DNA from: Verrucomicrobiota bacterium
GTDB taxonomy: Bacteria; Verrucomicrobiota; Verrucomicrobiia; Chthoniobacterales; UBA10450
Length of the DNA: 58,162 nucleotides
Reading direction: 5' to 3'
Assembly: GCA_003217875.1 (NCBI GenBank)
Contig: QHMR01000011.1
Coordinates: forward strand, 1-58,162
The notes beneath the pieces were generated by a model. That model saw only the letters and a list, made by a program, of their open reading frames with translations. It ran no database searches and had not been told where the DNA came from. The position numbers and the translations under genes were made by a program. Shown piece after piece: positions 32,169-53,382 of this stretch (position 1 is the stretch's first letter; every line of letters starts with the position of its first letter).

Positions 32169-32894
32169 ATGGCAAATTTCTTTCCACGCTGGACGAATTG
32201 GGTGCCGATCAAGCTCGTGGTCTGCGGCATCGTGCTCGCATGTGGGCTGAGTGGCGCCACCTGGTACTACGCTACGCCAAAATACACCAAAGTAGGATAT
32301 CAACCGATCCAACCCGTGCCGTTTCCGCACGATATTCATGTTACACAGCTCGGAATGGATTGCCGTTATTGTCACAGCTTTGTGGAGGTGGCGGCGCACT
32401 CCAATGTGCCGAACACGCAGACCTGCATGAACTGCCATACGCAGGTGCAAAAGGACAATCCAAAGCTGGAGCCGGTGCGTGCGAGCTGGAAATCAGGCGA
32501 TCCGGTCGACTGGGTGTGGATCTATCGCACGGTCGATTACGTTTATTACAATCATGCCGCACATGTGAACCGGGGCATTAGTTGTTTCAGTTGTCACGGC
32601 CCCGTCAATCACATGTCGACCGTGTATCTGGCTAAGCCGCATAGCATGGCGTGGTGCCTCGACTGTCATCGGCATCCGGAAAATTTTCTGCGGCCTGAAG
32701 AACAGGTTTTTGATCTCGATTGGAAACCTGAAGACGTGAAGCCGGCGGAGTTTGTCGCCAAATACGGTCAGCCAAGCAACGTGCGCGAAGATTTTTCCAA
32801 GAAGAAAAAACTCACGCAGACCGAGATCGGCGAGACGCTGAAGGAGCGCTGGAATATAACGCCGCCGACAAATTGCCAGGGGTGCCATCGATGA
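32169..32894 (+). CDS. actA: Alternative complex III subunit ActA, pentaheme cytochrome c
   Basis: The 241-residue protein has one N-terminal membrane helix (about 14-34) and five CxxCH motifs: CRYCH, CMNCH, CFSCH, CLDCH and CQGCH, the last at the very C-terminus. This is the number expected of ActA. It passes electrons within alternative complex III, which oxidises quinol and reduces a cytochrome c in place of bc1. It begins the operon actABCDEF, and its stop overlaps the actB start (ATGA at 32891-32894). Confidence 0.95.
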   Translation: MANFFPRWTNWVPIKLVVCGIVLACGLSGATWYYATPKYTKVGYQPIQPVPFPHDIHVTQLGMDCRYCHSFVEVAAHSNVPNTQTCMNCHTQVQKDNPKLEPVRASWKSGDPVDWVWIYRTVDYVYYNHAAHVNRGISCFSCHGPVNHMSTVYLAKPHSMAWCLDCHRHPENFLRPEEQVFDLDWKPEDVKPAEFVAKYGQPSNVREDFSKKKKLTQTEIGETLKERWNITPPTNCQGCHR

Positions 32895-35800
32895 AACGCG
32901 TCTTCCAACATCCGCCGGAGCCATTACACGGAAAGCATTACTGGCGCGGTTTGGGTGAGTTGAACGATACGCCAGAATTTCGGCAATGGCTGGAGCGTGA
33001 GTTTCCCCCAGGCGCGGCAGAGCTGAACGGGGACGAATGGTCGCGACGCGACTTTTTGAAGTTAATGGGCGCCTCGATGGCGCTCGCAGGCGTTGGCCTG
33101 ACGAGTTGTCGCAGGCCCGAGCTGCATCTCGTTCCGTTCACAAAGAACGTTGAATGGACGATCCCCGGGAAATTTCTCTACTACGCCACCGCGATGCCCC
33201 GACGCACAGGCGCAATTCCGCTGATCGCCACAACCGTGGATGGGCGCCCGATAAAATTGGAAGGCAACCCGTTGCATCCGGCTAGTGGCGGCGCCACGGA
33301 CACATTTGTTCAAGCATCAATTCTGGACTTGTACGATCCATCACGCTCGCAGCGTTTTGTTCACAAGGGAAAAACGAGCAATCGCGCTGATTTTGACGCT
33401 TACGTAGGAACTCTTCGCAACGCGCTTACGAGCCAACGTGGAGACGGTCTTGCATTCCTGGTTGGGGAAACGAATTCCCCAACGCGTGAACGACTGTGCA
33501 ATGAACTCGAAAAAATGTTTCCGAGCATGCGCTGGTGCGTTTATGAACCGCTGCTGAGTCATGAGCAGGCAACTGCTGCGCAAAGCGCGTTCGGAGCCGG
33601 CGCGCGGCTTGTTCCGAAATTGGATCGCGCAGACGTAATTTTCGCGCTGGATAGCGATTTTCTCGATTGCGGCCATGGCGACCTCGAATCGGTGCACGCG
33701 TTCACCTCGCGCCGAAGAGTGAAATCCGCGGCAGACAGTATGAATCGGCTTTACGTCGTCGAGAACCGCTTCACGCTCACCGGTGCAATGGCAGACCACC
33801 GGCTCCGTTGCCCCGCGAGCCAGATTGCCGCGTTCGCGCACGCGCTTGCGAAAAAAATTCTCGCAGGAACAAACGATGCCGGACTAGGCGGACTCGTTAA
33901 CAATCTGCAGACTCCGGCAGGCGGCGCAACCTTCAATGAACAATGGCTTGGCGAGGCCGCAAATGACCTGCTCACAAAACCGGGTGCGAGCTTGGTACTC
34001 ACGGGTCCAAATCAGCCGAGCCCAGTGCAATTGCTTGTTTATGCAATTAATGCTGCGTTGAAAAATATCGGCCAGACGTTGACCGTCCGACAATTACCGC
34101 ACAACGCGCGCACGATAGGCATTTCACAATTGGCGTCCGACGTAAAGGATGGGCGAATCAAGCAACTTTTCATTTTCGGCGGCGATCCCGTTTACAACGC
34201 ACAGCGCGGACTCGTATCGGATCCGCAAACAAAGCTCCCGCTCGACTGGGCTGAATTGCAAAAGAAGGTGCCGGAGATTGTGCGACTCGGTTATCACGAG
34301 GACGCGACGTCCGCGCTCAGCCACTGGCAAATTCCGCTCGCGCATTATTTGGAATCGTGGGGCGACGCACTCACATCCGGTGGCGATTACTTGTCAATTC
34401 AACCAATGATCCTGCCGCTCTTTGGCGGACTTTCGGAAATCGAACTGCTCAATGCGTTGCTCGGCGGCCCAAAAACAGAAGGGCCTGAACTCGTGCAGGA
34501 AAGTTTTCGCGCCACAAATCCGCTGGGCGATTTTCAAACTGCGTGGTCCCGTTTCTTGCACGACGGTTTCGCATCGCACGTCCAACCGCGTGATCAGACC
34601 GCTTCGTTCAATGCAAACGCGATCCGACCGCAGTTTCAAAGTTCATGGACGTTGCCTCCAGCGCCAACGCCGGATTCGCCGGAGATTGTGCTCACAGGCA
34701 GTTATTCAATGGACGACGGGCGTTACGCCAATAACGGCTGGCTACAGGAATTGCCCGACCCAATAACCAAACTCACCTGGGACAACGCCGCGCTCATGAG
34801 TCCTGGCTTTGCGAAGAGGCTTGGTGTTGCAACCGGCGACCTGGTGCAGATCACGATCACAGCAAAAAGCGCCGCGTTGGAACCGATCAAACGTGAGTTG
34901 GTCATCGCCGCACTCGTGTCGCCCGGCCATGCGGACAATTCGATTACCATCCCGCTGGGTTACGCGCGGAAGATGCCGCAATTTTACGAGCTTCCGTACG
35001 CGGGCGGAGCGCTCAAGCAAAGACCTGGAATCGCGGAGCAATCCGGCTTCAATGGTTATTTCCTGCGAACAGTTGCCAATCCGTATTTTGCCGTCGCAGG
35101 AGCGCCTGGGATCGAGAGTGTTCGCGTGACCAAAGTCGGCCGCACGTATCCGTTTTCGATTACGCAGGAGCACTTCAGCATCGAAGGCCGCGGGCTTGTC
35201 CGCGAAGCGACGTTGGAAGGTTACCGGGCGAATAATGAGTTCGCGAAAAAAATTCCGGGCGAAGAAGAATTGCCACATCCTCCGCCCAGCATTTACACCC
35301 ATCCGCCGCTGGACGCGCCGCAGCAGTGGGGGATGAGCATCGATTTGAATGTGTGCACTGGGTGCCAGGCGTGCGTCATCGCCTGTCAGGCGGAGAACAA
35401 CGTTCCTGTCGTCGGAAAGCTACAAGTCTCGCACGGCCGCATCATGCACTGGCTGCGCATCGATCGTTACTACGCCAGTCGTAAACCATTCAATCAAGAC
35501 CGCGGCGAATGGCCGGATGATCCCGAGATCGTGCATCAGCCGATGCCGTGTCAGCATTGCGAGAACGCTCCGTGCGAGACGGTTTGCCCCGTGAACGCGA
35601 CCCTCCACAGCGAGGACGGATTAAACGTCATGGCTTACAATCGTTGCGTCGGCACGCGATTTTGCTCGAACAACTGCCCGTACAAAGTGCGCCGATTTAA
35701 TTATTTCGACTACAATCAGCGACCAGTCGGCAAGAGAAAGGTCGTGGGCGCATTCAATATCTACGAAGAATATTTCGCGCCGCTGACCACCAAAGGCGCG

Positions 35801-36196
35801 CCCGACACGATCAAGATGCAGAAAAACCCGAACGTCACCGTGCGCATGCGCGGGGTGATGGAGAAATGCACCTTCTGCGTGCAACGTATCGAGGAAGCAA
35901 AGATCGCGGCGATCGCACGCGCAGGCGCTTCACCGGACAAACGTATTCCGCGCGATTCGTTTACGACCGCGTGTGCGCAAGCGTGCCCCACCGGCGCGAT
36001 TGTCTTTGGAGACATCAAGGATCGTGAAAGTGCGGTCTCAAAAGTGAAACAGCAGGATCGCAATTACCGCATTCTCGATTATTTGAACGTTGTCCCGCGA
36101 GTCAGTTATCTCGCGCGCATTCGCAATCCAAACCCGAAAATGCCTGACGCGGAAAACATCGGAGTCGCGAGTTTGGTAGAGAAATTACCGGAATAA
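32891..36196 (+). CDS. actB: Alternative complex III subunit ActB (molybdopterin-oxidoreductase-like, Fe-S)
   Basis: The 1101-residue protein starts at ATG 32891. A twin-arginine signal lies at about 50-75 (SRRDFLKLMGASMALAG). The long middle resembles molybdopterin oxidoreductases without cofactor motifs. The C-terminal part is FeS-rich: CTGCQACVIACQAEN, CQHCENAPCETVCP, RFCSNNCPYKVRRF and CTFCVQRIEEAK. In characterised ACIII this subunit is a fusion of both parts and carries the clusters facing the periplasm. The next gene follows a 76-bp gap that is almost wholly a 7-bp tandem array. Confidence 0.95.
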   Translation: MKRVFQHPPEPLHGKHYWRGLGELNDTPEFRQWLEREFPPGAAELNGDEWSRRDFLKLMGASMALAGVGLTSCRRPELHLVPFTKNVEWTIPGKFLYYATAMPRRTGAIPLIATTVDGRPIKLEGNPLHPASGGATDTFVQASILDLYDPSRSQRFVHKGKTSNRADFDAYVGTLRNALTSQRGDGLAFLVGETNSPTRERLCNELEKMFPSMRWCVYEPLLSHEQATAAQSAFGAGARLVPKLDRADVIFALDSDFLDCGHGDLESVHAFTSRRRVKSAADSMNRLYVVENRFTLTGAMADHRLRCPASQIAAFAHALAKKILAGTNDAGLGGLVNNLQTPAGGATFNEQWLGEAANDLLTKPGASLVLTGPNQPSPVQLLVYAINAALKNIGQTLTVRQLPHNARTIGISQLASDVKDGRIKQLFIFGGDPVYNAQRGLVSDPQTKLPLDWAELQKKVPEIVRLGYHEDATSALSHWQIPLAHYLESWGDALTSGGDYLSIQPMILPLFGGLSEIELLNALLGGPKTEGPELVQESFRATNPLGDFQTAWSRFLHDGFASHVQPRDQTASFNANAIRPQFQSSWTLPPAPTPDSPEIVLTGSYSMDDGRYANNGWLQELPDPITKLTWDNAALMSPGFAKRLGVATGDLVQITITAKSAALEPIKRELVIAALVSPGHADNSITIPLGYARKMPQFYELPYAGGALKQRPGIAEQSGFNGYFLRTVANPYFAVAGAPGIESVRVTKVGRTYPFSITQEHFSIEGRGLVREATLEGYRANNEFAKKIPGEEELPHPPPSIYTHPPLDAPQQWGMSIDLNVCTGCQACVIACQAENNVPVVGKLQVSHGRIMHWLRIDRYYASRKPFNQDRGEWPDDPEIVHQPMPCQHCENAPCETVCPVNATLHSEDGLNVMAYNRCVGTRFCSNNCPYKVRRFNYFDYNQRPVGKRKVVGAFNIYEEYFAPLTTKGAPDTIKMQKNPNVTVRMRGVMEKCTFCVQRIEEAKIAAIARAGASPDKRIPRDSFTTACAQACPTGAIVFGDIKDRESAVSKVKQQDRNYRILDYLNVVPRVSYLARIRNPNPKMPDAENIGVASLVEKLPE

Positions 36197-36197
36197 T

Positions 36198-36267
36198 GAA
36201 TCTCCGATTCTCGATTTTTGATTTTGGATTGTCGCCGTTGGCAACTGGCGATTGGCAATTGGTAATT
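36198..36267. repeat. 7-bp tandem array filling the actB-actC gap, 10 units
   Basis: Ten units in an unbroken 7-base phase start one base after the actB stop and end 5 bases before the actC ATG. The first units are of CGATTTT type and the last of GGCAATT type, so two related arrays are fused in phase. The actC ribosome-binding region is formed by or next to the last unit. Confidence 0.85.
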
Positions 36268-36272
36268 TCGTG

Positions 36273-37718
36273 ATGGACGGAGCACCCGCAGCAGCACCAG
36301 AAAAAATCAAAGAGGCCGAGCAGCGAATTGCGCATGTGCCGTTGGTTTTAAACCGGCGCAATTTCAGCTGGCTGACCGAGCGCATTTCCGGTGTCGTCGA
36401 ACAACCGGCGCCGCGCTGGTGGTGGGTGGCGTTCACCATCACTGCAAGCGCCGCGACGTTTGGGCTTTTTTGTATCGGCTACCTGATTTCCACTGGCGTC
36501 GGCACATGGGGAAATCAAATCCCGGTGGGCTGGGCTTGGGACATTACGAATTTCGTTTTCTGGATCGGTATCGGACACGCCGGCACACTGATCTCGGCGA
36601 TCTTGTTTTTGCTTCACCAAAAATGGCGTACTTCGATCAACCGCTCGGCGGAAGCGATGACGCTTTTTGCGGTGATCTGTGCCGCGATTTTCCCAGGCAT
36701 TCACGTCGGCCGGTTCTGGATGGCCTGGTATCTGGCGCCGGTGCCCAATAACTGGGCGATCTGGCAAAATTTCCGCAGCGCGCTGATGTGGGACGTGTTT
36801 GCGGTATCGACCTATTTTACCGTCTCGGTCCTATTTTGGTACACCGGTTTAGTTCCGGACTTGGCGTCTTTGCGCGACCGGGCAACCACAAAGATCAGGA
36901 AGTTCCTTTTCGGAATCTTCGCGCTTGGCTGGCGCGGCTCGAATCGGCACTGGCGCCATTACGAAATGGCGTATCTGCTTTTGGCCGGCCTTTCGACACC
37001 GTTGGTTCTCTCCGTGCACAGCGTGGTATCGTTCGACTTCGCCAGCACGGTCGTGCCGACGTGGCACAGCACAATCTTCCCGCCCTACTTCGTTGCAGGC
37101 GCAATCTTCGGGGGCTTTGCCATGGTGCTGACTCTGCTGTTGCCGGCCCGCGCCATCTTCAAGTTGCAAGATGTCATCACACCGCAGCACATCGACAAAA
37201 TGGCGAAGATCATTTTGTTGACTGGCTCATTCGTCGGTTACGCCTACACGATGGAGTTTTTCATCGCGTGGTATAGTGGCAATGCTTACGAGCGGTTCGC
37301 GTTTTGGAATCGCATCTTTGGTCCTTACTGGTGGTACTGGTGGTTCGGCATGCTCTTTTGCAACGTGCTTTCGCCGCAACTGTTCTGGTTCCGGTGGTGC
37401 CGGTACAACGTGTTGGTCGTTTTCTTTGTCGCCATGTGCGTGAACGCCGGCATGTGGTTTGAGCGCTTCATCATTATTGCCGGCGGTTTGGCCCGAGATT
37501 TCCTGCCATCGTCATGGAGAGTTTATCATCCGACGTGGGTGGACATCTGGACATACATTGGCACACTCGGGATTTTCACTTCGCTGTTTCTGCTGTTCAT
37601 CCGTTTCCTGCCGATGATCGCGATGTCGGAAGTGAAGACAGCCGTGCCTGAGGCAGACCCGCATCATGATATGCCTCTTCAATCGGTATCTCCTGGTGGA
37701 AAGGAGCGCACACGATGA
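36273..37718 (+). CDS. actC: Alternative complex III subunit ActC (NrfD/PsrC-like)
   Basis: The 481-residue integral membrane protein has about ten helices of the NrfD/PsrC kind, with [41 protein letters not shown] and [12 protein letters not shown]. It is one of the two large membrane subunits of ACIII and forms a quinol site with the ActB clusters. The start at 36273 ([11 protein letters not shown]) avoids translating the tandem array; a TTG at 36252 within the array is in frame. The stop overlaps the actD start by four bases. Confidence 0.94.
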
Positions 37719-38272
37719 TCAAAACTCCGTACGGTCACAAAGTTTACGCCATGGCGGCGGAGTACCAGAGCGCTGCAGCGCTTTATGAAGCAGCCAAGCG
37801 CGTCCGCGACGCCGGCTTCCGGCGTTGGGACGTTTATTCGGCATTCCCAATTCATGGGATGGACGAAGCCATGGGTCTGGGAAAATCTTGGTTGAGCGGC
37901 TGGGTCTTGTTTGGCGGAATTTCGGGACTGCTCACGGCGGCGCTGGTCGAGTTTGGTCCCTCATCGATTCTTTATCCGGTCGATGTGCACGGAAAACCAA
38001 CCAACTTTTTCACTGTTCCCGCGTTTTTCCCGATCATGTTCGAACTCACGGTGCTTTTCGCCGCGTTTGCGGCGTTTTTTGCTTGGCAGGGAATGAACCG
38101 GCTGCCGCGCTGGAATCATCCCATGTTCAACTGGGAGCGGTTTAGCCGCGTTACCAATGACGGATTTTTCCTCGCGATCGAAGCGCGCGACCCACGATTT
38201 ACCGAGACTGGCGTGCGCCAATTATTGGAAGAAACCGGCGGACAACACATCACCATCGTCCACGAGGACTAA
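37715..38272 (+). CDS. actD: Alternative complex III subunit ActD (DUF3341)
   Basis: The 185-residue protein has a soluble N-terminal ferredoxin-like part ([37 protein letters not shown]), two membrane helices at about 60-80 and 100-120, and a C-terminal soluble tail. This is the DUF3341/ActD pattern. It is a peripheral membrane subunit with no cofactor. The gene is coupled to actC and lies two bases before actE. Confidence 0.93.
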
Positions 38273-38274
38273 TT

Positions 38275-39021
38275 ATGTTGCGCGGATTTTTCGTGATTTT
38301 TTTTCTATGCACGATCGCGATCATCGCGGTGTTCGGATTTCGCGGGCAAATCAGCACACAACCGCCGACTGAAGTTTTTCCTGACATGGTGCGCCAGCCG
38401 AAAGTGCGCGCACAAGCGCCACTGGATTTGTTCGCGGACGGGCGGGGACCACGCTTGCCGGTTCCTGGCACAGTTCCGATTGGGTACGAAATGCCGAAGC
38501 CTCAGAGCGCTGAAACGCAGGCCATCGAAGTCGGTCCATGGTCGCATCCGCACAGCACTTTCAGTGTTGGCACCGATTACTACAACACCGGCAAAATGGC
38601 CGACCAGTGGGGAACAGGTATTCCGCTGGAAGTGACGCGCGAGTTAATGGAACGCGGACAACAGCGTTTCAACATCACTTGCGCGATGTGCCACGGCGCT
38701 GCGGCTGCGGGTAATGGAATCACCAAACAATATGGCCTTGCCACTGTGGTCACGCTTCAGGACGAACGCATTCGCAAAATGTCGGACGGCGAAATTTTCA
38801 ACACGATCACCAACGGTAAAAACACGATGATGGCTTACGGCCCAAACATCATCGTGCCGGATCGCTGGGCGATTATTGCTTACCTGCGCGCTTTGCAGCG
38901 TAGTCAAAACACGAACGTTGCCGATGTGCCGCCAGAGCATCGCGCCGAACTGGACAAGCCGGCCGAGAGCAAACCGCCGGAAGCGAAACCCGCAGGGAAG
39001 CAGGAGGCGCCAAAAAAATGA
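38275..39021 (+). CDS. actE: Alternative complex III subunit ActE, monoheme cytochrome c
   Basis: The 248-residue protein has an N-terminal membrane or lipoprotein-like segment (about 4-22, including Cys12), the YEMPKPQ and GTDYYNTGKMADQWGTGIP blocks typical of ActE, and one heme motif Cys136-AM-Cys-His140. The C-terminal 35 residues are Pro/Ala/Lys-rich. ActE carries electrons from the complex to its acceptor. The stop overlaps actF by four bases. Confidence 0.94.
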   Translation: MLRGFFVIFFLCTIAIIAVFGFRGQISTQPPTEVFPDMVRQPKVRAQAPLDLFADGRGPRLPVPGTVPIGYEMPKPQSAETQAIEVGPWSHPHSTFSVGTDYYNTGKMADQWGTGIPLEVTRELMERGQQRFNITCAMCHGAAAAGNGITKQYGLATVVTLQDERIRKMSDGEIFNTITNGKNTMMAYGPNIIVPDRWAIIAYLRALQRSQNTNVADVPPEHRAELDKPAESKPPEAKPAGKQEAPKK

Positions 39022-40220
39022 GCGAACGCTTACAGACTGTTCCGACTCCTGAAGGCGAATATTTCGACAGCGGCCGATTCGCTGGGCTTTCGTTCCTGCT
39101 TGGACTGGTTGCAGTAGTCGCGCTCGTCCTCTGTGTTGTCGGCGCAGTCCTAAATCCACATCAGTTCAGTTATTCCTGGCTCTTTGCGTTTGCCTTTTTC
39201 TTTACGCTGTGCGCTGGCTGCTTTTTTTGGACAATCGTGCATCATGCGACCGACGCCGAATGGAGCGTGGTCGTGCGCCGTCAGCTGGAAAATCTTGGCG
39301 CATTACTGACGGTCCTGGCGCTGCTGTTTGTCCCGATTCTTCTACTCCGCCATCATTTGTTTGCGTGGATGGATATTCCGCGCGGAGTCGAAGAATCACT
39401 CGATACCAAACGCGCCTATCTCAACTGGCCTTTCTTTCTCGTGCGCGCGGTAGTGTTTCTCGGGTTTTTCCTTCTGGCTGCGCTCGCCTTGCGACGACTT
39501 TCAGTCCGGCAGGACAGCGATGGCAATCCGTGGTTCACCATTGGAATGCGCAAAGTCTCGTTCATTAGTCTGCCGATGTTTGCGCTTTGTCTGACTTTCG
39601 GCGCGTTCGATTGGTTCATGAGCCTGAACTACCGCTGGTTCTCAACCATGTTCGGTGTTTACATCTTCGCGGGCGCAGCCGGCAGTTCCATGTCGCTGCT
39701 CGTTCTGGTGATCACCGCATTGCGGCAGGCTGGCTACCTGAAGGACGTCGTCACCGTTGAACATTATCACATCATGGGAAAATGGATGCTGGCCTTCTGC
39801 GTTTTCTGGGCCTACATCGGCTTTGGCCAGTATATGCTCATCTGGTACGCGAACATCCCGGAAGAGACGCAGTTTTTCATCACGCGAAACACGCAATCCT
39901 GGTGGGTGTTGAGCATGCTGTTGGTCATCGGGCGCTTCTTCATTGCCTTTCCAATCCTGCTCATGCGCTCCATCAAGAAGCATCCGCACCAGCTTTCTAT
40001 CGTAGCTGGTTGGATTCTGTGCATGCAGATGCTCGATATCTACCTCATCGTGCTGCCTGCGTTACACGGCACCGGGTTTCGTCCCAGCATTTGGGATTTG
40101 CTTTCGCTCATCGCCATCGGCGCGACGCTCGGGTTCGTCTATCTGCGTCTCGTGCCCAGGACTTCGCTGTTTCCTGTTCGCGATCCGCGGCTGATCGAAT
40201 CTCTGCAAACTGTAAACTGA
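39018..40220 (+). CDS. actF: Alternative complex III subunit ActF (membrane)
   Basis: The 400-residue protein has ten hydrophobic helices and family blocks FFWTIVHHATDAEWSVVVRR, FDWFMSLNYRWFSTMFGVY and HYHIMGKWMLAFCVFWAYI. It is the second NrfD-like large membrane subunit of ACIII, paired with ActC. It ends one base before the next gene. The six act genes match the order known in Rhodothermus and Flavobacterium clusters. Confidence 0.93.
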   Translation: MSERLQTVPTPEGEYFDSGRFAGLSFLLGLVAVVALVLCVVGAVLNPHQFSYSWLFAFAFFFTLCAGCFFWTIVHHATDAEWSVVVRRQLENLGALLTVLALLFVPILLLRHHLFAWMDIPRGVEESLDTKRAYLNWPFFLVRAVVFLGFFLLAALALRRLSVRQDSDGNPWFTIGMRKVSFISLPMFALCLTFGAFDWFMSLNYRWFSTMFGVYIFAGAAGSSMSLLVLVITALRQAGYLKDVVTVEHYHIMGKWMLAFCVFWAYIGFGQYMLIWYANIPEETQFFITRNTQSWWVLSMLLVIGRFFIAFPILLMRSIKKHPHQLSIVAGWILCMQMLDIYLIVLPALHGTGFRPSIWDLLSLIAIGATLGFVYLRLVPRTSLFPVRDPRLIESLQTVN

Positions 40221-40221
40221 A

Positions 40222-40767
40222 ATGGCAAACGCTGAATCTATTCGTCAGATTGCACGTTCGCGCGCTCCGTTGTCCACGTGGTTGGCGGTCGTGCTCATCT
40301 TTGCGTTGTTTGGCGTAATCGTGCTCGCGATCATTGGCCCAATGCCGCGGGGAAGTGACTACGAAGAGACGCGCGCCAAAAAGCGCATTGAAAAACTTAA
40401 AACTGTCCGAGAAGACGCAGAGAAAGCTCTGAACACGTACGCTTGGATCGATAAAAATAAAGGCGTCGTTCAAATCCCGATCAGTCGCGCGATGGAGCTG
40501 ACGACCGCTCAGCTTGCACAGCAAAAACCAGCGCCGGCAGGTCCAATTGCTACGCCACAGGCGCAGTCTCCGGCCGCGCCCAGTTCACCTGCTCCTGCAG
40601 GTTCCCCGAAACCTGGCGCGGTTCAGCCGGCTGGCTCGCCTTCGGCGCCCGCACCCGCTGCGCCGGTGACTCAACCTGCTGCATCGCCTTCACCAGCGGC
40701 ACAGGCATCGCCACCTGCAGGTGCTTCACCCGCCGCGGCTTCGCCGTCACCTGCGCAAAGCCCATGA
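40222..40767 (+). CDS. Membrane-anchored Pro/Ala-rich protein of unknown function
   Basis: The 181-residue protein has one membrane helix (about 20-42, STWLAVVLIFALFGVIVLAII), a Lys/Glu-rich helix with AWIDKNKGVVQIPISRAM at about 70-95, and a low-complexity tail of Pro, Ala, Ser and Gly from about 100 to the end. The block around IDKNKGVVQIP recalls small proteins encoded in respiratory clusters of this type, so it may be a further small subunit or assembly factor. The tail resembles the insert in the CcoO-like protein nearby. Function is not known. Confidence 0.75.
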   Translation: MANAESIRQIARSRAPLSTWLAVVLIFALFGVIVLAIIGPMPRGSDYEETRAKKRIEKLKTVREDAEKALNTYAWIDKNKGVVQIPISRAMELTTAQLAQQKPAPAGPIATPQAQSPAAPSSPAPAGSPKPGAVQPAGSPSAPAPAAPVTQPAASPSPAAQASPPAGASPAAASPSPAQSP

Positions 40768-40813: not shown

Positions 40814-42295
40814 ATGAACGCCACTGGAATTCCACTGAAAGAACCATCCGTCTCTGCCGCCGCGGGAGCGACAGAGCAGTTGGAGCGCGCGTACATCGAC
40901 GCGTCGACGCGTGTGCCAGTACTGATGTTCTACACCTCGGCAATGGCGTGGCTGATCCTCGGCACGCTGCTGGCGGGTTTCGTTTCATTTAAACTTCACG
41001 AGCCCGATCTGCTGTCGAACATTAGTTTTCTGACGTGGGGACGCGTGCGGCCGGCGCACATGAACGTGATGGTCTACGGCTGGGCTTCCATGGCCGGAAT
41101 TGGCACTGCCATTTGGCTCATGGCGCGATTGTGCCGGACCGTTTTGCGATATCCGCTGTTGCTCCTTGCGGGTGCTTGTTTTTGGAACTTGGGCGTGCTC
41201 CTTGGCGTCTGCGGAATTCTTCTCGGCGACAGCACCGGTTATCAATGGCTCGAATTTCCGGGCTACGCGGCGATCATTCTTTTTGTTGCGTACACGCTCG
41301 TTGTTTCGTGGGCGGTGCTGATGTTTCGCTATCGGCGGGGCGAACAAATTTACATTACGCAATGGTATTTGCTCGGCGCGTTTCTCTGGTTCCCATGGCT
41401 ATACGCGGCCGGGCAACTGATGCTTTTCGTTGTGCCGGTGCAGGGGGTCTTGCAGTCGGCCGTCGGCTGGTGGTACGCGAACAATCTGCTCTTTCTCTGG
41501 TTCGGCGCCATCGCTCTCGGCACGGCGTATTACATGATTCCCAAAGTGATCGGACGCCCGGTGTACAGTTATCATCTGGCGACAATTGGCTTTTGGACCT
41601 ACGCGCTTTTCTCAAGCTGGACCGGAATGCAGCGGCTGGTCGATGGGCCGTTTCCAGCGTGGATGATCACGGCCAGCATCGCCGCGATGATTCTGGCGAT
41701 GATTCCCGTCGCAACAGTCGGCCTTAACCATCACATGACGATGCAGGGTTATTTTCCGCTGATGCGCTACAGCCCGACGCTGCGGTTCACCGTGTTCGGC
41801 GCGATGTCTTACACCGTCTTTAGCGTAGTTGGCCTGTTGATTTCACTTCGCTCGGTCGCGGGATACGTCAACTTCACCCAGACGAGCATCGCTTACTCGC
41901 ATCTCGGTCTTTACGCGTTTTTCACAATGGTGATTTTTGGTGCCATGTACTACATCGTGCCGCGGTTAGTCGGCCGCGAATGGCGGTACGCATCGCTGAT
42001 CAAACTGCATTTCTGGGCATCGGCTTACGGCATCGGTTTAATGACGCTCATGCTGCTCGCTGGCGGCTTTCTTCAAGGCGCAGACATGGAGAACCCTACG
42101 CTCCCATTCAGTGAGACCGTGGAAACAGTGCTGCCGTATCTGCGAGGACGCAGTCTCGCTGGTATTTTGCTCACCGCGGCACATTTCATTTTCGCGTATC
42201 ACTTCGGGTTGATGCTCTTGGGCTTAGGGCGCACATCGACTGTTCCTACATTTCTCAACCCAGTCGAAGCAGAGGAAACTTCAGGAGGACACTGA
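40814..42295 (+). CDS. CcoN-like heme-copper oxidase subunit lacking the active site
   Basis: The 493-residue protein from ATG 40814 has about 12 helices and aligns by eye with cbb3 subunit I. His82 in PAHMNVMVYGW and His363 in YSHLGLY match the low-spin heme b ligands. All active-site ligands are changed: the CuB histidine of WWYGHN is Asn223 (WWYANN), the CuB pair of AGPHHLHYT is Gln273-Arg274 (TGMQRLVDG), the heme b3 ligand of HVH is Tyr361 (YSH), and the helix VII tyrosine is Ser267. It should bind one heme b and not reduce oxygen. It probably passes electrons between ACIII and the cytochromes encoded next. It could also be a scaffold. Confidence 0.88.
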   Translation: MNATGIPLKEPSVSAAAGATEQLERAYIDASTRVPVLMFYTSAMAWLILGTLLAGFVSFKLHEPDLLSNISFLTWGRVRPAHMNVMVYGWASMAGIGTAIWLMARLCRTVLRYPLLLLAGACFWNLGVLLGVCGILLGDSTGYQWLEFPGYAAIILFVAYTLVVSWAVLMFRYRRGEQIYITQWYLLGAFLWFPWLYAAGQLMLFVVPVQGVLQSAVGWWYANNLLFLWFGAIALGTAYYMIPKVIGRPVYSYHLATIGFWTYALFSSWTGMQRLVDGPFPAWMITASIAAMILAMIPVATVGLNHHMTMQGYFPLMRYSPTLRFTVFGAMSYTVFSVVGLLISLRSVAGYVNFTQTSIAYSHLGLYAFFTMVIFGAMYYIVPRLVGREWRYASLIKLHFWASAYGIGLMTLMLLAGGFLQGADMENPTLPFSETVETVLPYLRGRSLAGILLTAAHFIFAYHFGLMLLGLGRTSTVPTFLNPVEAEETSGGH

Positions 42296-43410
42296 TGAAA
42301 GGTCTCGCTCCTCTCTTCCTTGGAATCTTCGGTACGTTCGCTTTCTCATGGGTGGGATTGACCGTCCTCCCGAATTGGCAGATCGGACATCTGAATCCGC
42401 AATCCGACGAGGAAGGCACCGATATTTATCCGCAGCCGCAATCAGGAATGTTCGAGCGCGGCGCTCGCGTTTATGCTGCAAACGGCTGCATTTACTGTCA
42501 CAGCCAGCAAGTGCGCCCCGCTTACGCCGCGGCCGACATCGAACGCAAATGGGGTGACCGCCGGAGCGCACCGCGCGATTACATCTTCGAACGGCCAGTG
42601 TTTCTCGGGAAAATGCGAATGGGCCAGGACCTCGCGAATATCGGCGCCCACGCGTCTGCGGAACAGGCGAGCCCGGCGCCAACCGGAGCGGCGCCTCCTG
42701 GAGGTTCGCCGAGTGGAGGAACAAGTCCCGCGGCTTCGCCTGCGCCACAAGGAGGAGCACCAGCGGCTGCTTCACCAGCGGCGAAACAAAGTCCGAATCC
42801 CTCTCCTGCAACACAAGGTGCCTCACCCGGGCTAGCAGGTTCGCCCGCAACTGCGAGTTCGCCTGCAACAGCAGCTGCTGCGTCGCCCGGCGCGTCACCA
42901 GGATCATCATCGCCGCCCGCGGGAGCGCCACCGCCCGGCCCTAAGACAGGTCTCGCCTCGCCGTCCCCTGCAGCAGCAGCGAATGCGACGCCGGGAGGCG
43001 TGACTGCCCCGTCATCCGGTTCGCAGACCGCAGGCCCGCCGTGGCCAATTCAAACGATTGGCGAACCACCGATGTATTCCGCGGCCTGGCATCATGTGCA
43101 CCTTTATTCGCCACGCAGCATCAACTTCGATTCGAACATGCCTGCTTATCGTTTCCTTTACAAAAAGCGCCGCATCAGTGACGCACGTTCAGCGGAAGCC
43201 CTGCAGCTCACTGGCTCCGACGCGCCGCCTGAAGGTTGGGAAGTTGTTCCCACTTACGACGCGAAATGCCTTGTCGCTTACATGATGGCGCTCAATCAAT
43301 CGCATCCGCTAAGCGAAGCGAGATCTGCCGGAGGTGCACCGCCGGCCGCAGCATCACCAGCCGTATCACCTGGTCCCTCAGCCGCCGGGTCCCCCGCGCC
43401 AGCAAAATGA
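42295..43410 (+). CDS. ccoO: CcoO-like monoheme cytochrome c with large low-complexity insert
   Basis: The 371-residue protein has an N-terminal anchor (about 5-25), the heme site Cys65-IY-Cys-His69 in the CcoO-type context CHSQQVRP, and the axial Met282 in NFDSNMPAYRFL. Between ANIGAH (about 119) and AAWHHVHL (about 263) lies an insert of about 127 residues made mostly of Pro, Ala, Ser and Gly, where normal CcoO has a few residues. A second such tail closes the protein. It begins TGATG-overlapped with the CcoN-like stop and has an AGGAGG ribosome site. Confidence 0.9.
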   Translation: MKGLAPLFLGIFGTFAFSWVGLTVLPNWQIGHLNPQSDEEGTDIYPQPQSGMFERGARVYAANGCIYCHSQQVRPAYAAADIERKWGDRRSAPRDYIFERPVFLGKMRMGQDLANIGAHASAEQASPAPTGAAPPGGSPSGGTSPAASPAPQGGAPAAASPAAKQSPNPSPATQGASPGLAGSPATASSPATAAAASPGASPGSSSPPAGAPPPGPKTGLASPSPAAAANATPGGVTAPSSGSQTAGPPWPIQTIGEPPMYSAAWHHVHLYSPRSINFDSNMPAYRFLYKKRRISDARSAEALQLTGSDAPPEGWEVVPTYDAKCLVAYMMALNQSHPLSEARSAGGAPPAAASPAVSPGPSAAGSPAPAK

Positions 43411-52254: not shown

Positions 52255-53382
52255 CTATTTCGGCCGTCTCGCCTTGGTCGAGATGGTCAAGACGACGAAC
52301 TCGGCGCGCCTGAGTGGCGCAAAGCCGACCACGACATTCACCAAGCCCGCATCGATATCGTTCTGCGTGGTCGTAGCCGCATCACATTTAACAAAGTACG
52401 CGTCACGGGGTGTGCTACCCTGGAAAGCTCGTTGGCAAAATAATTGTTGCAGAAAAGCTCCTACGTTCAGCCGGATCTGTGCCCAGAGAGGTTCGGCGTT
52501 CGGCTCGAAGACAGCCCATTGGATTTCGCGATAAAGGCTCTCTTCAATGAAGAGTGCGAGTCGCCGCACCGGAATGTATTTCCAATCCGACGTAGACTCC
52601 TCAGTGCCTTCCAGTGTCCGTGCGCCCCACACGAGCGTGCCTGTCGGGAATACGCGCAGGCAGTTTATGCCGAGCGCGTTCAGCGCTCCGTTTTCCGAAT
52701 CCGTCAGATTGTAAGAAAGGCCAGACACGCCGATCACAGCAGCGTCTGTGCCTGCCGGCGCTGTCCAGACGCCTCGCGAATTATCGGTGCGTGCGAATAA
52801 GCCGGCGATGGAGCCGCTTGGCGGAGTCAGCCGGAGTTTTCTACTGTTGAGAGGATCAGGAATCTTGATCCACGGAAAATATGCTGCGCCGTAGCTAGTC
52901 TTTGGCAACGTGGCGTTCCGGACGGCTTGTGCCATTTGCGCGGGTGTTTCCGCACTCTTTGGGGCATCCAGGATAAGAAATGCGCGCCGCTGCCGACAGT
53001 AATCGGCTGCTGCGGAAAGCGCTTCTGAATTCACGACTCCTGGAATCACCAGCAGATTGAAAATGTCCACGGCATCGAGCGCGTGGATGCCTTTGATAAC
53101 CTTGGCGGCGGTGAGCTGCCGCGCCACACGCACGACCCAAGCGTCTTTGCCTCCATTGAGAAAAAACTGCTGCACGGCATAGCCGAGATCGTAGTTCGAA
53201 ACCAGTCCGCCGAACCGCTGTTCAAACTTGCGGAAGCTATTTATGCGCACCGCGCGATAGCTTCTCCCGCGACTTGCCGCTCCCACAAACGCGGTGACCG
53301 AAGTCGAAACTCTGTCAATTGTTCGCATGCCGGTCGGCACCTCTTCAACAAAGATGCCGGGATATTTTGGATGGGGAGTCAT
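52255..53382 (-). CDS. Phage-type contractile tail sheath protein
   Basis: The 375-residue protein starts PKYPGIFVEEVPTGMRTIDR and has VTAFVGAASRG, DLGYAVQQFFLNGGKDAWVVRV, FNLLVIPGV and the C-terminal half with LNALGINCLRVFPTGTLVWG and LFIEESLYREIQWAVFEPN. This is the core sheath fold with both linker arms and no surface domain between about 90 and 95, so it is a minimal sheath as in extracellular contractile injection systems. Sheath subunits contract around a tube; no tube, baseplate or ATPase gene is seen here. The protein seems intact from end to end. Confidence 0.92.
   Translation of the reverse strand: MTPHPKYPGIFVEEVPTGMRTIDRVSTSVTAFVGAASRGRSYRAVRINSFRKFEQRFGGLVSNYDLGYAVQQFFLNGGKDAWVVRVARQLTAAKVIKGIHALDAVDIFNLLVIPGVVNSEALSAAADYCRQRRAFLILDAPKSAETPAQMAQAVRNATLPKTSYGAAYFPWIKIPDPLNSRKLRLTPPSGSIAGLFARTDNSRGVWTAPAGTDAAVIGVSGLSYNLTDSENGALNALGINCLRVFPTGTLVWGARTLEGTEESTSDWKYIPVRRLALFIEESLYREIQWAVFEPNAEPLWAQIRLNVGAFLQQLFCQRAFQGSTPRDAYFVKCDAATTTQNDIDAGLVNVVVGFAPLRRAEFVVLTISTKARRPK

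Follow-up and report, generated by a model that had tools for sequence, protein, structure and literature searches.

A CcoN-like protein of verrucomicrobial alternative complex III clusters that has lost the oxygen-reduction site, and its possible role as a membrane scaffold

In the standard clusters of Flavobacterium and Rhodothermus that encode alternative complex III (ACIII) and a caa3 oxidase, ActA-G are followed by oxidase genes with no CcoNOP genes between them. In cbb3-type oxidases, heme b sits downstream of CcoO and is a dead end once heme b3 is absent. A cbb3-type oxidase co-located with ACIII has been described in M. kamchatkense and tied to its high oxygen affinity (PMC6688271), cbb3 is counted among three terminal oxidase types in methanotrophs (PMC8498564, PMC10205796), and in M. 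caldifontis IT6 a nos cluster lies inside the ACIII cluster (PMC11102522). We analysed a 58,162-nucleotide stretch of verrucomicrobial DNA (the window) in which a CcoN-like gene lies within an ACIII cluster. This arrangement is unlike that of the planctomycete Paludisphaera (L215), a standard ACIII-caa3 cluster in which ActA-G are followed by SCO and CoxBA and CcoNOP is absent.

The CcoN-like gene and its cluster

The window carries a pentaheme ActA, an ActB fusion, an NrfD-like ActC, ActD, ActE and ActF in the order of an ACIII cluster, and the CcoN-like gene is followed, as at cbb3 loci, by CcoO and CcoP partners with c-heme motifs, although this CcoP has a single CXXCH. The features are as follows.

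32169–32894 (+): ActA, pentaheme cytochrome c; Pfam multiheme matches, five CXXCH motifs, kept in relatives
32873–36196 (+): ActB, fused molybdopterin-oxidoreductase-like and iron-sulfur subunit; TIGR04519 and QrcC/DsrO-type matches, likely start ATG 32891
36252–37718 (+): ActC, NrfD-like membrane subunit; DsrP-type match, about 54% identity to the Paludisphaera ACIII NrfD/PsrC subunit
37715–38272 (+): ActD (DUF3341-type); syntenic position and relatives
38275–39021 (+): ActE, monoheme cytochrome c; Cytochrome_CBB3/Cytochrom_C matches, one CXXCH
39018–40220 (+): ActF, membrane subunit; synteny and homologues
40222–40767 (+): ActG-like small membrane protein with a Pro/Ala-rich tail; conserved gene in the ActF–CcoN interval
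40814–42295 (+): CcoN-like pseudo-oxidase subunit; CuB, heme b3 and Tyr ligands gone, low-spin heme b ligands His82 and His363 present
42295–43410 (+): CcoO-like monoheme cytochrome c; FixO match, one CXXCH and Met282 kept, Pro/Ala/Ser-rich insertion of about 140 residues
43418–44194 (+): CcoP-like monoheme cytochrome c; Cytochrom_C/CBB3 matches, one CXXCH, start ATG 43418 from the junction sequence, reading frame open from 43334

The CcoN-like gene encodes 493 amino acids plus a stop in one open frame, and the description of it in an earlier note on this DNA as intact and within an operon holds. The good ribosome site claimed in that note does not stand up, as GAAGG runs straight into the ATG, leaving no spacer, and relatives do not share it; the start codon itself is backed by most homologues. 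The protein matches Pfam COX1 (E 2.8e-56), but the NCBIfam ccoN model scores it at 162.6 bits, far under the equivalog cutoff of 583. Its best sequence matches among PDB chains are cbb3 CcoN (3mk7, E 5e-40), and cbb3 CcoN chains also head a Foldseek search with the predicted structure, 3mk7 being the best (E 4e-17, TM 0.74–0.80); with a pLDDT of 65.6 and a pTM of 0.73 the model is of moderate quality, and thus good for the fold and not for atomic detail. Sequence and predicted structure agree on a CcoN fold with 12 transmembrane helices. The protein resembles C-family CcoN in fold and length, and also in its ligands for low-spin heme b, its conserved Trp, Asn and Lys residues and its CcoO/CcoP partners.

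Clusters with ActA-G, CcoN, CcoO and CcoP are widespread in Verrucomicrobiae, and in many of them CoxB and/or CoxA follow CcoP. CcoN-like matches were found in 123 of 388 genomes of the phylum (a count that includes true CcoN) and in 181 of 213 genomes of the order. The CXXCH motifs of ActA (five), ActE, CcoO and CcoP are kept alike in clusters whose CcoN has intact or degenerate ligands, truncated reading frames excepted. Adjacency of CoxA/CoxB does not clearly separate the two kinds of cluster: 25 of 44 informative degenerate clusters have these genes after CcoP, compared with 12 of 29 intact ones. The CcoO insertion (window 42646–43070) separates the region of the heme motif from that of the Met ligand, and is found in a further locus (L003) and not in the intact L045. 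Elsewhere in the window, a gene at 52255–53382 (-) matches a contractile phage tail sheath protein (Phage_sheath_1, Pfam), possibly a prophage remnant or a contractile injection system.

Ligand residues across the family

Ligand positions were read against Pseudomonas stutzeri CcoN (PDB 3mk7). In this alignment the CuB histidines are replaced (His207 by Asn223, and His257-His258 by Gln273-Arg274), as are the proximal heme b3 ligand (His345 by Tyr361) and the helix VII active-site tyrosine (Tyr251 by Ser267), and cbb3 Glu323 corresponds to Val; the low-spin heme b histidines are both present (His60 as His82, and His347 as His363). The four oxygen-site losses and two retained histidines proposed in the earlier note are therefore exact. 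The protein thus differs from cbb3 CcoN in the absence of these residues, in its linkage to ACIII, and in its CcoP with one heme motif. A relative with all ligands and about 50% identity (L045) aligns to it without gaps around the ligand sites. Oxygen-site losses are common to all of the approximately 45 loci from soil Verrucomicrobia with at least about 75% identity, and neither chance nor sequencing error can therefore account for them. Identity as a nitric oxide reductase (NorB) was also considered and rejected: the same histidines are absent, and the sole NorB sequence match is marginal (E 0.057).

A close comparison is with intact ACIII-linked CcoNOP clusters of Verrucomicrobiae (such as L045 and L174–L183), which share the operon order, 43–55% identity and residues particular to the family, the pair His306-His307 among them, but have all of the oxidase ligands and provide the only oxidase found in at least two genomes. 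The earlier note had considered that His306-His307 might occupy the CuB site. Of the 30 intact homologues, nearly all combine these two histidines with the canonical ligands, so the pair is a family feature rather than a relocated metal site, and a substitute CuB site at this position is ruled out.

Among 84 family members sampled for ligand state (a set with a few near-duplicates), 30 have an intact ligand set, one of these with a single change. The oxygen site is lost and both low-spin histidines are kept in 17, the class to which the window belongs; one low-spin histidine is lost as well in 16, and both are lost in 21. The 17 sequences of the window's class do not vary in the low-spin pocket (Arg79, His82, Asn84, Asn224, His306, His363 and Arg446, each at 100%), whereas the heme b surroundings are mostly gone in the class without low-spin histidines. 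This pattern suggests a stepwise loss, in which the b3/CuB centre would have gone first and heme b second. Both low-spin ligands are replaced in several relatives with the same operon, including L029 (Tyr/Asp), L033 and L035 (Gln/Gln), L131–L133 and the methanotrophs, and the CcoO and CcoP heme motifs are retained in the sister lineages where this has happened.

It could be proposed that heme b3 is retained with Tyr361 as its axial ligand and supports other chemistry, such as nitric oxide or peroxide handling. Tyrosine-ligated hemes occur in other proteins, and the window's family keeps Tyr361 almost without exception. However, L134 has Trp at this position and further degenerate lineages have Gln, Glu, Phe or other residues, the CuB ligands and Glu323 are absent, and electrons would still need to reach b3 through heme b, the ligands of which are lost in some members. 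We therefore regard retention of heme b3 as highly improbable.

Further loci extend the range of ligand states. An ACIII-linked and otherwise intact CcoN (L151, genome G468) has the single substitution His207 to Arg, which is either an error in the sequence or a site caught early in its loss. One genome (G523) has two CcoN proteins of one family, a degenerate ACIII-linked copy (L126) and a separate intact copy (L127). A third CcoN-like group (L193 and L200) has all ligands, with a WFYVHN motif, Gln at 323 and Ser at 337; CcoO is present and ACIII is absent.

Repeated loss, selection and other oxidases

A tree computed without the ligand columns requires a minimum of six changes between the intact and lost states, or five when long rows are omitted, and constraining all lost members to a single clade is rejected (p-AU 1e-10), ruling out one ancestral loss. 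Because regain of five ligands is implausible, we read these changes as losses, and the oxygen site appears to have been lost independently at least five to six times, with long branches leaving the exact number uncertain.

Purifying selection on CcoN persists after loss of the site. By simple Nei-Gojobori estimates, which are near synonymous saturation (dS about 1.1), dN/dS for CcoN is 0.064 in the window genus (0.066 for ActC of the same genus), 0.055–0.078 in clades without low-spin histidines and 0.12 in intact clades; these values are clearly not neutral. That the ligand columns vary freely among degenerate lineages could be taken to indicate a decaying gene with no present function and loss pending. 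This explanation is extremely improbable, given the dN/dS of about 0.06, a frame that is open in almost every genome searched and the retained operon position; the first two of these rule out a pseudogene. The proposition that the protein is a retained non-oxidase subunit is well supported by the complete loss of the oxygen site, the dN/dS of 0.064, the conserved operon and the presence of an aa3 oxidase in the same genome.

That oxidase is encoded by the one other COX1 gene of the window genome (a MAG, 83.8% complete), an aa3-type CoxA with intact ligands, located on a separate contig and followed by CoxC; cytochrome bd was not found in this 83.8% complete MAG. At least one further COX1 protein is present in all 34 of the degenerate-site genomes examined, consistent with loss through redundancy. 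An alternative is that CcoN became a regulatory or oxygen-insulating subunit that limits direct oxygen reduction by the ACIII-coupled complex, as site loss is seen only alongside another oxidase. Simple redundancy is sufficient to explain this pattern, however, and we view an insulating role as quite improbable.

Two nearly complete genomes (G001 and G146; 99% and 98%) have a single COX1 protein each, a CcoN of the ACIII-linked family, which identity and COX1 score place in the intact f7 group, with ligand columns read in the group members L175 and L179; neither a second COX1 protein nor cytochrome bd was found in either genome. The intact ACIII-linked form is therefore very likely to be a working oxidase, judging from gene content. 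A degenerate CcoN would then descend from a working ACIII-linked C-family oxidase by loss of the heme b3/CuB centre, and this descent is part of the scaffold explanation set out below.

A candidate scaffold and the methanotroph copies

We consider it probable that the window protein is a conserved, non-catalytic CcoN which would act as a membrane scaffold, holding the c-type cytochromes CcoO and CcoP between ACIII and an aa3-type oxidase. Menaquinol electrons would run from ActA/ActE over the c-hemes of CcoP/CcoO to CoxB/CoxA, bypassing CcoN. The window's lineage probably still binds the low-spin heme b, as a dead end or for structural reasons, and several other lineages have probably lost heme b too. 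The sequences themselves show that the ligands were lost, repeatedly and independently, that the operon and the c-heme motifs are kept, that the gene is under purifying selection and that another oxidase is present. The physical complex, the electron route and the heme content are what we infer, the ACIII–CcoNOP–aa3 assembly from gene order.

The earlier note had instead suggested a heme b subunit acting as an electron conduit between ACIII and the CcoO/CcoP cytochromes. The first part of this is plausible for the window's lineage, where the histidines and surroundings of heme b are invariant in 17 sequences and heme b may still carry electrons, but probably does not extend to the 21 of 84 members in which both low-spin histidines are lost. 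The second part is weak and we think it unlikely: close relatives with the same operon and an intact gene under constraint lack both ligands and still have the CcoO and CcoP heme motifs, so that a heme b conduit cannot be the shared function, and the place of heme b downstream of CcoO in cbb3 would make it a dead end without b3. The conserved conduit is more likely to be the c-hemes, with CcoN as their putative membrane scaffold.

Five genomes of one family (f9; G054, G042, G266, G072 and G152) have pmo/amo-type genes, from which we take them to be verrucomicrobial methanotrophs. The only CcoN relative found in these sits between ActG and CcoO (L191, L194, L208, L209 and L210). In an alignment at 26% identity, where single columns are less sure, its CuB, b3, Tyr and low-spin histidine positions are all replaced, save one histidine of the CuB pair; helix X contains no HxH pair, and histidines number about five to eight in the entire protein. 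These copies correspond to the published methanotroph cbb3-type oxidase beside ACIII (PMC6688271, PMC8498564) and share the cluster type and loss of the oxygen site with the window, but have lost both low-spin heme b histidines and are described as a terminal oxidase. From its residues, the ACIII-adjacent subunit should not be an oxidase, contrary to that role. One methanotroph locus (L209, 6122–13044) has an insertion of approximately 7 kb that separates ActF from ActG; this is probably the nos cluster described for the ACIII genes of M. caldifontis IT6 (PMC11102522).

More broadly, we lean towards the view that in Verrucomicrobiae an ACIII-linked cbb3-like oxidase has repeatedly become a non-catalytic and often heme-b-free scaffold, with the CcoO/CcoP c-hemes wiring ACIII to aa3, and that the Methylacidiphilum 'high-affinity cbb3 oxidase' is one of these and unable to reduce oxygen. 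No report of CcoN ligand loss was found in a literature search that reached few subscription papers and had the original ACIII gene-cluster surveys outside its reach. If the scaffold explanation is true, a respiratory oxidase core has repeatedly been turned into a structural, electron-wiring part, within a complex whose ActB is itself regarded as a molybdoenzyme remnant without cofactor. Published respiratory chains would then need reassessment, as the high oxygen affinity of methanotrophs has been credited to this cbb3 (PMC6688271), a subunit without ligands for oxygen chemistry or heme b. Likewise, genome pipelines relying on family matches to count ccoN would report too many high-affinity oxidases for the Verrucomicrobia that are abundant in soil, Udaeobacter among them.
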